Source: Candidatus Anammoximicrobium sp.
GTDB taxonomy: Bacteria; Planctomycetota; Planctomycetia; Pirellulales; Pirellulaceae
NCBI GenBank assembly: GCA_012515235.1
Contig: JAAYYU010000027.1
Location: 62,001 to 126,000 of the forward strand
Direction: 5' to 3'
Length of the DNA stretch: 64,000 nt
Below the pieces are notes generated by a model. It did not search any database and was not told the DNA's origin. It saw only the letters and a list, made by a program, of their open reading frames with translations. Below, piece by piece: positions 3,677 to 8,182 of this stretch (position 1 is its first letter; every line of letters begins with the position of its first letter). A program made the position numbers and the translations under genes.

Positions 3677-3942
3677 CCGTCACACTTGGTGGGACGGTAG
3701 GCAATAAACACAGGACAGTTCTTCGAACGAAGTCTGGCACGCAATCATCCGTCGCAAGACGCTCGCCAAACAACGTCGAAAACGGCCGATCAAATCCCGA
3801 GTGCATCCTGAGCGGGGATTCCGTTGACCGTCGCCAGCGTTCCCGCCCCCAAAGCTGCCGCGAGGTCTGTGCGAACTTGCTGCGCCGCTTGCGTTGGAGC
3901 CGCTTGCGTTGGAATTGGCGCGTTTCTTTTAGAAACTGCCGC
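3677..3942. other. Intergenic stretch upstream of the ilv promoter
   Basis: No supported gene was seen. It contains one exact 15-bp direct duplication and otherwise serves as the upstream flank of the ilv control region. Confidence 0.5.
3884..3913. repeat. 15-bp tandem duplication
   Basis: GCCGCTTGCGTTGGA occurs twice in direct succession (3884-3898 and 3899-3913). It ends 30 bases upstream of the proposed ilv -35 box, so it could matter for promoter activity, but nothing else indicates a function. Confidence 0.8.
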
Positions 3943-3971
3943 TTGACGCCGATAAAAGGGAACGCTAACAT
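3943..3971 (+). promoter_or_regulatory. Candidate sigma70-type promoter of the ilv leader
   Basis: TTGACG (3943-3948) and TAACAT (3966-3971) are separated by exactly 17 bases. This places transcription start near 3978, about 30 bases before the leader peptide ATG at 4010, the spacing expected for an attenuated biosynthetic operon. A second -10-like hexamer, TTTAAT (3971-3976), has no matching -35 box. Confidence 0.6.
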
Positions 3972-4009
3972 TTAATAAGCATCAAAGTTATTTGCTTCGG
4001 TTGACCCTT

Positions 4010-4114
4010 ATGAACCGCGATTTTCGTTCCAACTTGAGACTGCTGGCCACCCCCGTGGCAGTCCTGGGCGTCGTGGTTCTGGTCGGCGTCGTCGTAGACG
4101 ACGTCGCGTCGTAG
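4010..4114 (+). CDS. ilvBN operon leader peptide (IvbL-like)
   Basis: A 34-codon frame runs from ATG at 4010 to TAG at 4112-4114. Fifteen of its 34 residues are Val (10) or Leu (5), concentrated in the stretch VAVLGVVVLVGVVV. It contains no Ile. This composition matches the regulatory leader peptide of the enterobacterial ilvBN operon, where slow translation of Val and Leu codons controls attenuation. It lies between a promoter (3943-3971) and a strong GC-rich terminator hairpin (4150-4184), upstream of ilvB. Its codons overlap the first RNA stem and its stop codon falls inside the antiterminator segment, as the mechanism needs. There is no strong Shine-Dalgarno sequence. The role is inferred; the peptide itself is unlikely to have another function. 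Confidence 0.8.
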   Translation: MNRDFRSNLRLLATPVAVLGVVVLVGVVVDDVAS

Positions 4115-4171
4115 GGGGTCAAGCGGACACCACAATCCGGACCATCACCCAACCCCCGCCGGCGCGACGCG
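4084..4171 (+). promoter_or_regulatory. Alternative RNA pairings of the ilv attenuator
   Basis: Segment 1:2 is a stem of 4084-4093 with 4097-4106 (core CGTCGTC / GACGACG), lying on the last Val codons of the leader. The competing antiterminator pairs 4105-4111 (CGCGTCG) with 4165-4171 (CGACGCG), and 4114-4119 (GGGGGT) with 4152-4157 (ACCCCC). The antiterminator uses the left arm of the terminator, so the two cannot coexist. A ribosome stalled on Val/Leu codons would block segment 1 and favour the antiterminator. A ribosome that reaches the stop at 4112 would cover segment 2 and favour termination. Confidence 0.7.
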
Positions 4172-4194
4172 CCGGCGGGGGTTGTCCTTTCTTG
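4150..4194 (+). terminator. Attenuator terminator upstream of ilvB
   Basis: A perfect 17-bp inverted repeat (4150-4166 and 4168-4184, arms AACCCCCGCCGGCGCG and its complement) is followed by the pyrimidine-rich tail TCCTTTCTT. It lies between the leader peptide stop and the ilvB start, so it terminates before any downstream gene. This is the arrangement of a transcription attenuator rather than an end-of-operon terminator. Confidence 0.8.
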
Positions 4195-4239
4195 GCATCC
4201 TGACCCGCGCCGGCCGTCGCTCCGGCAGCCAAGAAAGGA
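4185..4239 (+). promoter_or_regulatory. Stem sequestering the ilvB ribosome binding site
   Basis: TCCTTTCTTGGC (4185-4196), the tail of the attenuator, is exactly complementary to GCCAAGAAAGGA (4228-4239), which holds the ilvB Shine-Dalgarno sequence (AAGAAAGGAG, 4231-4240). The loop is 31 bases. In read-through RNA that refolds the terminator, this stem would hide the ribosome binding site and give a second, translational control layer. The pairing is seen directly; the function is inferred. Confidence 0.55.
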
Positions 4240-4247
4240 GCACTGCG

Positions 4248-5939
4248 ATGATTCACACCACCGGCGCGCAGGCGATCGTTCGCTTGCTGGAACGTCAGGG
4301 GATTCGCACCATTGCTGGAATACCCGGCGGCGCGAATTTGCCTATCTATGACGCCCTGTCCCAAAGCCGCCAGATCCGCCACGTGTTGGCGCGTCACGAG
4401 CAGGCGGCGGGGTTTATTGCCCAAGGCCAGGCCCGCACTACCGGCCAGCCGGGAGTCTGTTTTGCGACCTCCGGGCCGGGGGCCACGAACCTCCTGACAG
4501 CCGTGGCGGACGCAAAACTGGATTCGATTCCGCTGGTCTGCATCACCGGGCAGGTGCCGCGGGGGATGATCGGCACCGATGCGTTTCAGGAAGTCGACAC
4601 GTACGGCCTGAGCATTCCGATCAGCAAACACAATTTCCTGGTGCGGTCGGCGGGCGAGTTGCTCGAGGCGGTTCCGGAAGCGTTCCGGATTGCCGCCTCC
4701 GGCCGTCCCGGTCCGGTTTGGATCGACGTGCCGAAGGACGTCCAGAACGAGACGATCGAATTCGACGCCTGGCCTGAACCGGGAAAACCGGAGCCTCCCC
4801 CCGTGGCCGATGAGGCCGAATTGCAGCGGGCGGCGGCGATGATCAATACGGCTCGACGCCCGGTGCTGTATGTGGGCGGCGGCGTGGTCCAGGCTGACGC
4901 CGGGGAGTTGGCAACGGCCTTGGCGGAAAAAGCCTCGATTCCGGCCGCGATGACGCTGATGGGACTGGGCGCCGTGCCGTCCGATCATCCGCGCTCCTTG
5001 GGGATGCTGGGCATGCACGCGGCCCGCTATACCAACTTGGTGCTGGAGGAATGTGACCTGCTGATCGCCGCCGGCGTTCGCTTTGACGACCGCGCCACGG
5101 GCCAGGTCGCCCAGTTCTGTCCGCATGCCCAGATCATCCACGTCGACATCGACCGTAGCGAGTTGGACAAGATCAAGACGGCGCACGTGGGGATCCACGG
5201 CGACGTGGGGCAAACGCTGCAGTCGCTTTTGCCGAGGGTACGGCGGCAGATGCGGCCCGACTGGCTGGCACGCGTCGCCGAACTGAAGCGGCAGCACCCG
5301 TTGATCACACCTGGGGCGGCGGACCCGCGGATGCCTTACGGCCTGATCCTGCAAACGGCCCGCCTGGCCGGCGACGACGCGATCGTGACCACCGACGTAG
5401 GCCAGCACCAGATGTGGGCCGCCCAGGCGTACCCGTTTTCCCGGCCGCGCCAGTTGCTGACGTCGGGCGGGTTGGGAACGATGGGCTTTGGCCTGCCCAC
5501 GGCGATCGGGGCGGCCTTGGCTTGTCCCGATCGGACGGTGATCTGTTTCAGCGGCGACGGCAGCCTGCTGATGAACATCCAGGAGTTGATGACGGCTGTC
5601 GAGGAGAACGTGAACGTCAAGATCGTGGTGATGAACAACCGTTCGTTGGGGCTGGTGCATCAGCAACAGGACATGTTTTTCGGCAAACGCCACTTTGCGT
5701 CCGGATTCCGGTCCAACCTGGACTTCGTGAAGATCGCCGCCGGGTTTGGGATGCCTGCCTACGATCTGGCCACCACTGCTGCGCCGCTGGCGATGTTGGA
5801 GCAAGCCATTACCTGTTCCGGTCCCTGTTTGATTCACGCCCCCATCGACGTCCGGGAGTTTGTGTTCCCTATCGTGCCGCCGGGCGCCGCCAATCGAGAC
5901 ATGTTAGGAGGAAAAGCCAATGTCGACACTTGCGCTTGA
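4248..5939 (+). CDS. ilvB: Acetolactate synthase large (catalytic) subunit
   Basis: This ThDP enzyme joins two pyruvates, or pyruvate and 2-oxobutyrate, in the first common step of Val/Leu/Ile synthesis. The 563-residue product has the three expected domains: the N-terminal pyrimidine-binding domain with the catalytic Glu51 in ARHEQAAG, a central FAD-type domain, and the C-terminal ThDP domain with GDGSLLMN (437-444) and MNN (462-464). The ATG at 4248 was chosen because AAGAAAGGAG lies 7 bases upstream and the alignment to known IlvB starts there; the earlier in-frame ATG at 4182 lies within the terminator. The sequence closely resembles enterobacterial IlvB (isozyme I), including VDTYGLSIPISKHN and PRQLLTSGGLGTMGFGLP. 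The gene overlaps ilvN by 20 bases. Confidence 0.95.
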   Translation: MIHTTGAQAIVRLLERQGIRTIAGIPGGANLPIYDALSQSRQIRHVLARHEQAAGFIAQGQARTTGQPGVCFATSGPGATNLLTAVADAKLDSIPLVCITGQVPRGMIGTDAFQEVDTYGLSIPISKHNFLVRSAGELLEAVPEAFRIAASGRPGPVWIDVPKDVQNETIEFDAWPEPGKPEPPPVADEAELQRAAAMINTARRPVLYVGGGVVQADAGELATALAEKASIPAAMTLMGLGAVPSDHPRSLGMLGMHAARYTNLVLEECDLLIAAGVRFDDRATGQVAQFCPHAQIIHVDIDRSELDKIKTAHVGIHGDVGQTLQSLLPRVRRQMRPDWLARVAELKRQHPLITPGAADPRMPYGLILQTARLAGDDAIVTTDVGQHQMWAAQAYPFSRPRQLLTSGGLGTMGFGLPTAIGAALACPDRTVICFSGDGSLLMNIQELMTAVEENVNVKIVVMNNRSLGLVHQQQDMFFGKRHFASGFRSNLDFVKIAAGFGMPAYDLATTAAPLAMLEQAITCSGPCLIHAPIDVREFVFPIVPPGAANRDMLGGKANVDTCA

Positions 5940-6249
5940 AAAAGCAACCATCCCTTCCACGTCGTCGCCGCACACCGTAGTGGAGATGACCGTCAAGAAC
6001 CATCCGGGGGTCATGTCCCACATCTGCGGCTTGTTTGCCCGCCGCGCGTTCAACGTTGATGGGATCCTGTGCATGCCGATCGGGGAAGGAAGCACAAGCC
6101 GGATCTGGCTGCGCGTGCGGGAAGACCGGCGACTGGAGCAACTGATCCGGCAGACGCAGAAACTGGCGGATGTCCTGGACGTCCGGCGGCACGACGCGGA
6201 GCACCACGTGTTTCTGCAATTGGAGCAGTTTTTCACCGGCGTCCCCTAG
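5920..6249 (+). CDS. ilvN: Acetolactate synthase regulatory small subunit
   Basis: This ACT-domain protein binds the large subunit, raises its activity and confers feedback inhibition by valine. It has 109 residues, close to the ~96 of enterobacterial IlvN and much shorter than typical IlvH (~160). The core NHPGVMSHICGLFARRAFN is nearly the same as the enterobacterial IlvN motif. The ATG at 5920 has the Shine-Dalgarno TAGGAGGA 8 bases upstream, and the gene starts inside the end of ilvB, so the two are translationally coupled. With the leader peptide, the set reproduces the ivbL-ilvB-ilvN layout known from enterobacteria. Confidence 0.92.
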   Translation: MSTLALEKATIPSTSSPHTVVEMTVKNHPGVMSHICGLFARRAFNVDGILCMPIGEGSTSRIWLRVREDRRLEQLIRQTQKLADVLDVRRHDAEHHVFLQLEQFFTGVP

Positions 6250-6688: not shown

Positions 6689-8182
6689 ATGAAAACCTAC
6701 TTCGACTGTATCCCTTGCATGATTCGACAGGCCCTGGACTCGGCCCGCTTGGCCAGCGAGGACGAGACGGTCCACGAACGCATCCTGCGCGAGGCGTTGG
6801 TGGCCGCCAGCGAGTTGGACCTGTGTCAGCCGCCGCCCGCCATGGCCCAGCGGGTCCATCGCAGGATCCGCCAATTGACGGGAAAGGACGATCCGTATCG
6901 AGAAGCCAAGGACCGTCAGAATCGAATGGCACGGGAGTTCTACGAACGCTTTTCCCCCGAGGTCGCTTGTGCTGACAACAAGCTGGAAATGGCCGTTCGT
7001 TTGGCCATCGCTGGGAACGTCATCGATCTGGGGGTCAAAAGCAATCTGGACCAGTCTCAAATCGACAAGGCGATCGAAACCTGTTTGACGGAGCCTCTGG
7101 ATGGAGACATCCCGCAGTTCGCCGCGGCGATCGCCAAGGCTACCCGCATCTTGTATTTGGCGGACAACGCGGGAGAGATTGTCTTAGACCGACTGCTGAT
7201 CGAACAATTGCCGCGGGAGAAGCTGACGGTTGCAGTCCGAGGCGCGCCCGTGATCAACGACGCGACCCGCGTGGACGCCGAGACCGCCGGAATCACCGGC
7301 TTGGTTCCGGTGATCGACAACGGTTCGGATGCCCCCGGCACGATTCTGGAAGACTGCAGCGGCGTGTTCCGCCGCCATTTCGCAGAGGCGGACCTGATCA
7401 TCGCCAAAGGCCAGGGCAACTACGAGACCTTGCGCGAGGCGCCCTGTCCGCTGTACTTTCTGCTGCGCGTGAAATGCTCCGTCCTTGCCCGCGACCTCGG
7501 CTGCCCCGTAGGCCGCATGGTTTTGCGGTCCGCGAGTTCGCTGCCGCGTTCCGAGCCGGAGGTGAACCAGGTTCTGCCTTCGCTTCCCTTGTCCGTTCAC
7601 CGGGAGCCGACGATGAAAATCGCCGTGACGGCGGATGCGCCGTCTCTGGAGGCGGCCGTCGATCTGCGGTTCGCGCGCTGTCCGTATCTCGTTCTCGTGG
7701 ATTCTGGGAACGGGACGTTTGAGGCCCTGGAAAACACCGCCGTTGGCGCCGGCAGCGGTGCCGGTATCCAAACCGCCCAGACGCTCGCATCGAACGGCGT
7801 TCAAGTCCTCCTGACGGGCAATTGCGGCCCGCACGCATTCCAGACCTTGTCCGCCGCAGGTATTCGCGTCGTTCCAGGATGTTCGGGCACCGTCCGAGAA
7901 GTTGTCGAGCGATACACGGCAGGGCAGCTTCCGCCTGCCGACGAGCCCGATTTGGTGCCCTACTTCGGCGCGGACAACGCAGCGGCATCGACCCGAAGTG
8001 CGCCCGCGCAACCGGGTCTTGACTTGCCCGTGAAAGGCGGGCAGGACATGGGCCGGGGAGGCGGCCAGGGGAAGGGACGTGCGCCAGGTCCGGACGACGG
8101 TCAGAGTCCGGGCGGCGGACGCGGGTTGGGCCGCGGGCGAAGAGGCACGGGCCGTAGCGGTGGACGACGAGGAAACAGATAG
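6689..8182 (+). CDS. DUF89 phosphatase-like domain fused to NifX/MTH1175-like domain
   Basis: Residues 1 to about 285 form a DUF89 (ARMT1-like metal-dependent phosphatase) domain, shown by the N-terminal CIPCMIRQ pair, LYLADNAGEIVLDRLL and IIAKGQGNYETL. Residues 309 to about 415 are a NifX/NifB-C/MTH1175-like domain of the type linked to iron-molybdenum cofactor handling (MKIAVTADA, GSGAGIQTAQTL, LLTGNCGPHAF). The tail from about residue 440 is Gly/Arg-rich. The linker (about 286-308) has no domain character. Met309 (ATG at 7613) has GGGAG 6 bases upstream, so the second domain might also be made alone. No nitrogenase gene is nearby. The two domains are usually separate proteins, so this may be a genuine fusion or a lost stop codon. 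Confidence 0.8.
   Translation: MKTYFDCIPCMIRQALDSARLASEDETVHERILREALVAASELDLCQPPPAMAQRVHRRIRQLTGKDDPYREAKDRQNRMAREFYERFSPEVACADNKLEMAVRLAIAGNVIDLGVKSNLDQSQIDKAIETCLTEPLDGDIPQFAAAIAKATRILYLADNAGEIVLDRLLIEQLPREKLTVAVRGAPVINDATRVDAETAGITGLVPVIDNGSDAPGTILEDCSGVFRRHFAEADLIIAKGQGNYETLREAPCPLYFLLRVKCSVLARDLGCPVGRMVLRSASSLPRSEPEVNQVLPSLPLSVHREPTMKIAVTADAPSLEAAVDLRFARCPYLVLVDSGNGTFEALENTAVGAGSGAGIQTAQTLASNGVQVLLTGNCGPHAFQTLSAAGIRVVPGCSGTVREVVERYTAGQLPPADEPDLVPYFGADNAAASTRSAPAQPGLDLPVKGGQDMGRGGGQGKGRAPGPDDGQSPGGGRGLGRGRRGTGRSGGRRGNR

Follow-up and report, generated by a model that had tools for sequence, protein, structure and literature searches.

Does the ilvBN operon of a planctomycete, Candidatus Anammoximicrobium sp., carry a ribosome-mediated attenuator, and if so, how did the switch come to stand there? 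The question arose from a reading of the letters and open reading frames of a 64-kb stretch of its DNA (the window), hereafter the sequence-only reading, which proposed such an element upstream of ilvB and regarded it as unexpected in this phylum. According to Naville and Gautheret (2010), leader-peptide attenuation was shown only in Proteobacteria and Actinobacteria, to which a case in Firmicutes was added (PMC2965389). Later work suggested upstream open reading frames ahead of ilvB in several lineages, among them Leptospira and, for "various bacterial phyla", the ilvB-OMG motif (PMC10272879). The type of switch is already known; within the open-access literature, we found no papers on leader-peptide attenuation in planctomycetes and no published precedent for the present example. 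We consider it highly probable that the element corresponds, in a planctomycete, to the ivbL attenuator of E. coli, in which a stalled ribosome causes antitermination, and likely that operon and attenuator came as one cassette by horizontal transfer.

The operon and its leader region

The two enzyme genes match models of the E. coli-type acetohydroxyacid synthase I and, thus, form the equivalent of E. coli ivbL-ilvBN. The presence of an operon of this type with its own ivbL leader explains what had appeared unexpected in a planctomycete. The features of the region are as follows.

3943-3971, forward strand: sigma-70-like promoter TTGACG-17-TAACAT (shuffles of the 1 kb region give an expectation of 0.1)
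3998-4007, forward strand: 5' strand of a helix joining the leader start region to the bases after the stop (partner 4116-4125; inverted repeat)
4010-4114, forward strand: ivbL-like leader peptide gene of 34 codons, stop TAG at 4112-4114 (open reading frame call and counterparts in relatives)
4084-4106, forward strand: hairpin on the last Val codons, 4084-4093 with 4097-4106 (inverted repeat)
4102-4119, forward strand: 5' strand of the antiterminator, including the leader stop (inverted repeat, alignment, and duplex test)
4150-4184, forward strand: intrinsic terminator stem-loop of 16 pairs with loop GAC (fold and covariation)
4152-4169, forward strand: 3' strand of the antiterminator, overlapping the 5' arm of the terminator (inverted repeat, alignment, and duplex test)
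4185-4196, forward strand: tail of the terminator, which can pair with the Shine-Dalgarno region of ilvB at 4228-4239 (AGGAG at 4236-4240; inverted repeat of 12 nt and duplex test)
4248-5939, forward strand: ilvB, acetohydroxyacid synthase I large subunit (NCBIfam NF006016, PRK08155; 967.5 bits, cut-off 870)
5920-6249, forward strand: ilvN, acetohydroxyacid synthase I small subunit, overlapping the end of ilvB (NCBIfam NF006036, PRK08178; 151.7 bits, cut-off 128)

The promoter with a spacing of 17 and the leader of 34 codons with 15 Val or Leu residues and no Ile, both proposed in the sequence-only reading, were recovered at 3943-3971 and 4010-4114. In the window and the four other planctomycete loci described below, the -35 boxes contain TTGAC, the spacing is 16-17, and the -10 box ends 34-40 nt upstream of the leader ATG; the promoter-to-leader distance is alike in all five. 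The -35 region CCGCTTGACGCC (3939-3950) is also 92% complementary to the bases just past the leader stop (4115-4126), probably by chance because the -35 region is untranscribed.

The leader peptide, MNRDFRSNLRLLATPVAVLGVVVLVGVVVDDVAS, contains 10 Val, 5 Leu, and 0 Ile residues. Among the 441 open reading frames with 15-60 codons on either strand of the window, it is the only one with 9 Val in 14 residues; the runner-up has 6. The start ATG 4010 is favoured over TTG 3992 because the leaders of the window, two of the other planctomycetes (G063 and G391), and Desulfoferrobacter have the start M-(N/K)-R-D in common. No clear Shine-Dalgarno sequence was found ahead of this ATG, and a comparison of the 34-aa peptide with the Pfam and NCBIfam profiles gave no match. 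The fold of region 3978-4247 is unusually stable (z = -4.8; 0 of 200 shuffles as stable). The same genome has a second ilvB on another contig, which is 48% identical; a Val-rich leader was looked for upstream of this native copy (L002) and none was seen.

Homologous leaders in other genomes

The homologue scan covered the genomes named here and their relatives. The same type of ilvB is present in Enterobacteriaceae, Rhodocyclaceae-like bins (MAGs), Accumulibacter, Azospira, and Desulfoferrobacter. Four other planctomycete genomes have it as well: G063 (82% identical to the window in ilvB) and G041 (64%) belong to the same family, and G391 (68%) and G329 (61%) to one other family. At most of these loci, a leader rich in Val and Leu has its stop embedded in GCGYCG-TAG-GGG and is followed by a CCCCGCCGGCGC-type terminator. 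Examples are the leaders of G063 (MNRDMSPSLTVVAARAAVLGVVVLLGVVVDDVAS), Desulfoferrobacter (MKRDTTATRSIPSVPAVLVSVVVLVCVVDGVAP), and E. coli (MTTSMLNAKLLPTAPSAAVVVVRVVVVVGNAP). The leader with its stop context, the antiterminator, and the terminator show recognisable homology at the nucleotide level to those of E. coli ivbL, Thermodesulfobacteriota, Betaproteobacteria, and the four planctomycetes. Conservation of the Val/Leu codons and of the pairings in relatives had been set beforehand as a test of the sequence-only reading, and it extends from the same family to E. coli. The leader stop was also confirmed to lie within the antiterminator strand, as that reading had held, in the context GCG[C/T]CG-TAG-GGG.

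The window and E. coli share the operon type, a leader of similar length (34 and 32 codons, respectively) with Val runs and some Leu, a stop in the antiterminator strand with the context given above, and the terminator 5' arm, and can be aligned at the nucleotide level. They differ in that the Val run of the window is less dense and uses mixed GTC/GTG/GTA/GTT codons, its terminator is longer and more stable, its U-tract is weaker, and the terminator tail is complementary to the ilvB Shine-Dalgarno region. The ilvB-OMG, ilvB (Leptospira), and ilvB-II (Corynebacterium) motifs similarly consist of upstream open reading frames rich in branched-chain residues, some with terminators (PMC10272879). 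However, the window has no Rfam match at the gathering score and aligns with the ivbL family instead. Actinobacterial ilvB leaders also have a short Ile/Val/Leu open reading frame and a terminator ahead of ilvB, but their frame overlaps the terminator, whereas that of the window stops 35 nt before the stem; in Streptomyces coelicolor, changes of leader codons ahead of ilvB were without effect (PMC1262725).

In each of the five planctomycete genomes, a covariance model of the leader detected a single strong site, which lay at this type of ilvB and scored 86-113 bits; the window, which is itself part of the model, scored 113 bits. The best other planctomycete match reached 44 bits. Among loci outside the building set, weaker sites were present ahead of ilvB in Fibrobacterota (27 bits) and Bacteroidota (19 bits). 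The remaining sites, judged by score, fall far under these five and are probably noise from G+C-rich hairpins.

More distant relatives of this ilvB with similar leaders and terminators occur in Myxococcota, Spirochaetota, Fibrobacterota, and Bacteroidota (phylum names as in the records of these loci). A Val-run leader and a terminator precede ilvB in a Fibrobacteres bin (L029 1823-1897, MNNLRLVTLVVSVVVVVDHSLPLG) and in Breznakibacter of the Bacteroidota (L064 1802-1873, MNIHLSTIVLSVVVVVVCQPPQG), and Val/Leu leaders with terminators precede it in a Treponema bin (L020, about 1753-1812) and another spirochaete (L022). In Azospira and Accumulibacter (L008 and L006), the leader has 50-51 codons and runs past the antiterminator strand because the usual stop is missing; Azospira has CAG in place of the TAG of the others. 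In Fusibacter (Bacillota, L016), a T-box-like sequence, GTACCGCG, precedes a related ilvB in place of a leader peptide, which appears to be an exchange of sensing systems within one enzyme lineage.

Competing helices and the effect of a ribosome

The terminator arms of 17 nt are fully complementary, as claimed in the sequence-only reading. However, a single base separates them and, thus, the RNA form has 16 pairs and a 3-nt loop. This G+C-rich hairpin (-37 kcal/mol) is the longest perfect stem in the window. The pyrimidine-rich tail of the claim is TCCTTTCTT (4185-4193), a U-tract interrupted by C residues (6 of 9 are T). In an alignment of 16 sequences, five pairs of the terminator changed on both sides, and for each of five measures of covariation, the observed value was matched by 0 of 500 shuffles and by no slid register.

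The antiterminator also differs in part from the original proposal. The helix 4114-4119:4152-4157 held, whereas the inner helix 4105-4111:4165-4171, although present in the window, was rejected as the conserved register because it pairs in 48% of the alignment cells. The conserved partner is 4160-4166, and the conserved antiterminator, therefore, consists of 4105-4111:4160-4166 and 4114-4119:4152-4157, separated by a 2x2 internal loop. The pairs 4106-4111:4160-4165 and 4114-4118:4153-4157 form in 83% of cells against 35-57% in slid registers. In the 16-sequence alignment, this element is conserved rather than covarying, and its duplex reached p <= 0.05 against dinucleotide shuffles in 13 of 15 sequences (Fisher 1e-12; 2e-9 without enterics).

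The stem described earlier on the last Val codons is also present, but it coexists with the antiterminator, with an overlap of about two bases: in transcript 3978-4168, the two form with P 0.66 and 1.00, respectively. According to these folds, the Val-codon hairpin would not itself mask the antiterminator strand; it may possibly be a pause hairpin for RNA polymerase. Across the homologues, 60% of its cells pair and its covariation was equalled in 43 of 500 shuffles, which is weak support. The helix of the start region (3998-4007 with 4116-4125) had a duplex p of 0.003 in the window and a Fisher p of 1e-4 over 15 sequences; the window and some relatives have it in strong form, whereas G041 and G329 lack it.

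Folding with blocked segments, as the sequence-only reading had suggested, separated the two states of the leader. In transcript 3978-4168, in which the terminator is still incomplete, the antiterminator formed with P 1.00 in ribosome-free RNA and 0.99-1.00 when the mask of a ribosome covered the Val codons; placing this mask at the stop abolished it (P 0.00). At equilibrium, the terminator dominated in every fold of the full-length RNA; since it is always preferred there, antitermination would have to be kinetic, as in trp. In RNA that carries no ribosome, the helix of the start region is the first to form (P 0.92 at length 4130). Conservation and the mask folds support ribosome-mediated attenuation, the mechanism proposed at the outset, and regulation by this route would proceed as follows.

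Transcription would start near 3978, and translation of the leader at 4010. With ample charged tRNA-Val and tRNA-Leu, the ribosome would reach the stop at 4112 and cover about 4095-4127; the antiterminator strand would then remain unpaired, the 16-pair terminator would form, and polymerase would halt at about 4185-4193. When Val, and probably also Leu, is scarce, the ribosome would stall on the Val run (codons 18-29), which would allow 4105-4119 to pair with 4152-4166 before the 3' arm of the terminator exists, with read-through into ilvBN. In untranslated RNA, pairing of 3998-4007 with 4116-4125 would occupy half of the antiterminator strand; formed early, this helix would delay the antiterminator and favour termination. 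Reporters of E. coli ivbL show a response to Val and Leu but none to six further amino acids of the leader (PMC11187965).

The tail of the terminator may add a further layer at some loci. The probability that the ilvB Shine-Dalgarno sequence is paired was 0.95 in the window and about 1 in G391 and G041, but it reached only 0.43 in G063 and was about 0 for most of the enterics; in G041, the pairing arises via a different local hairpin. Sequestration by the tail was rejected as a family-wide trait, with a Fisher p of 0.11 for the 15 sequences together and of 0.001 for the five planctomycetes.

Origin of the operon and alternative explanations

At E <= 1e-200, ilvB of the acetohydroxyacid synthase I type was found in 3 of 241 genomes of the family and 3 of 392 across the phylum, the genome of the window being counted in each. 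In the ilvB tree, the planctomycete copies lie in a 20-row clade with 14 Pseudomonadota rows and one Thermodesulfobacteriota row (SH-aLRT 98), which stands apart from the other ilvB of this genome. A more careful ilvB tree leaves the branching order open and does not reject a single planctomycete clade (p-AU 0.28). The next gene upstream, nadA, shares 70-77% identity with its counterparts across the same order, and the neighbourhoods of the ilvBN loci hardly match beyond ilvBN. Since the operon is rare in planctomycetes, nadA is native, and the neighbourhoods differ, the operon and attenuator appear to have moved as one cassette. This transfer is the simplest reading and is likely; scattered loss is a possible alternative. 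Naville and Gautheret left transfer and convergence undecided because there was no sequence similarity between phyla (PMC2965389). In the present study, the attenuators of planctomycetes, desulfobacteria, and E. coli are linked by nucleotide similarity, and this link speaks for common descent with transfer.

The operon and leader may have been acquired and the switch then died, for example through poor coupling or because the terminator always wins, leaving a constitutive terminator and an incidental or vestigial Val-rich frame. The dominance of the terminator in the full-length folds and the imperfect U-tract are what such a relic would exhibit. However, leader codons 16-34 of the window and G063 are 92% identical, while their ilvB genes are 80% identical in nucleotides, and the four changed codons among codons 17-34 comprise three synonymous changes and one Val to Leu. 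Furthermore, a G-C pair of the terminator became A-U in G063 with compensation on the opposite arm, and the antiterminator U-G became U-A with pairing kept. A decayed case looks clearly different: USSF (L019) has no recognisable leader ahead of ilvB. We, therefore, regard a dead switch as unlikely. It is very improbable that the RNA senses something else, as a riboswitch, T-box, or protein site with the frame as a by-product. ilvB is elsewhere under T-boxes, as the T-box-like sequence of Fusibacter illustrates, or ppGpp riboswitches (PMC10272879). However, the Rfam search identified no family at the gathering threshold in the window and only unrelated sub-threshold matches in the region, with no ilvB motif at E <= 10, and conservation falls on a reading frame with its stop and on a pair of competing helices rather than on an aptamer.

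The contig may also be proteobacterial contamination of a planctomycete bin. The contamination figure of the bin is 7.6%, the operon belongs to a proteobacterial type, and most of its clade consists of Pseudomonadota. Nevertheless, the adjoining nadA is native to the order, and SBP_bac_10, a family that we regard as a planctomycete hallmark, matches this genome 82 times, with three of the matches on the same 225-kb contig, and has no match in 14 control genomes. Together, nadA and SBP_bac_10 make contamination unlikely; in addition, the operon recurs at 82% identity, amid other neighbouring genes, in a relative of the same family. We assign this explanation the smallest probability of those considered. 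An acquired and probably still functional ivbL-type attenuator remains our preferred explanation.

The interest of the locus lies in distribution: the switch seems to travel with its enzyme genes between distant phyla. A ribosome-mediated switch needs ribosomes that trail RNA polymerase closely, and doubt has been cast on such proximity in some planctomycetes. A working planctomycete attenuator, if true, would be a built-in reporter of transcription-translation coupling in the phylum, for one species of which a spatial separation of transcription and translation has been claimed (Gottshall 2014, as cited in PMC5394234). We see about an even chance that the attenuator and enzyme genes constitute a mobile regulatory cassette that works in Planctomycetota and reveals close coupling there, possibly with a tail that hides the ilvB ribosome-binding site.

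Downstream of ilvN, the window encodes a damage-control phosphatase (ARMT1-like) domain fused to a dinitrogenase FeMo-cofactor domain (6689-8182), and a sequence similar to window positions 7613-7966 is located downstream of ilvBN in G041.
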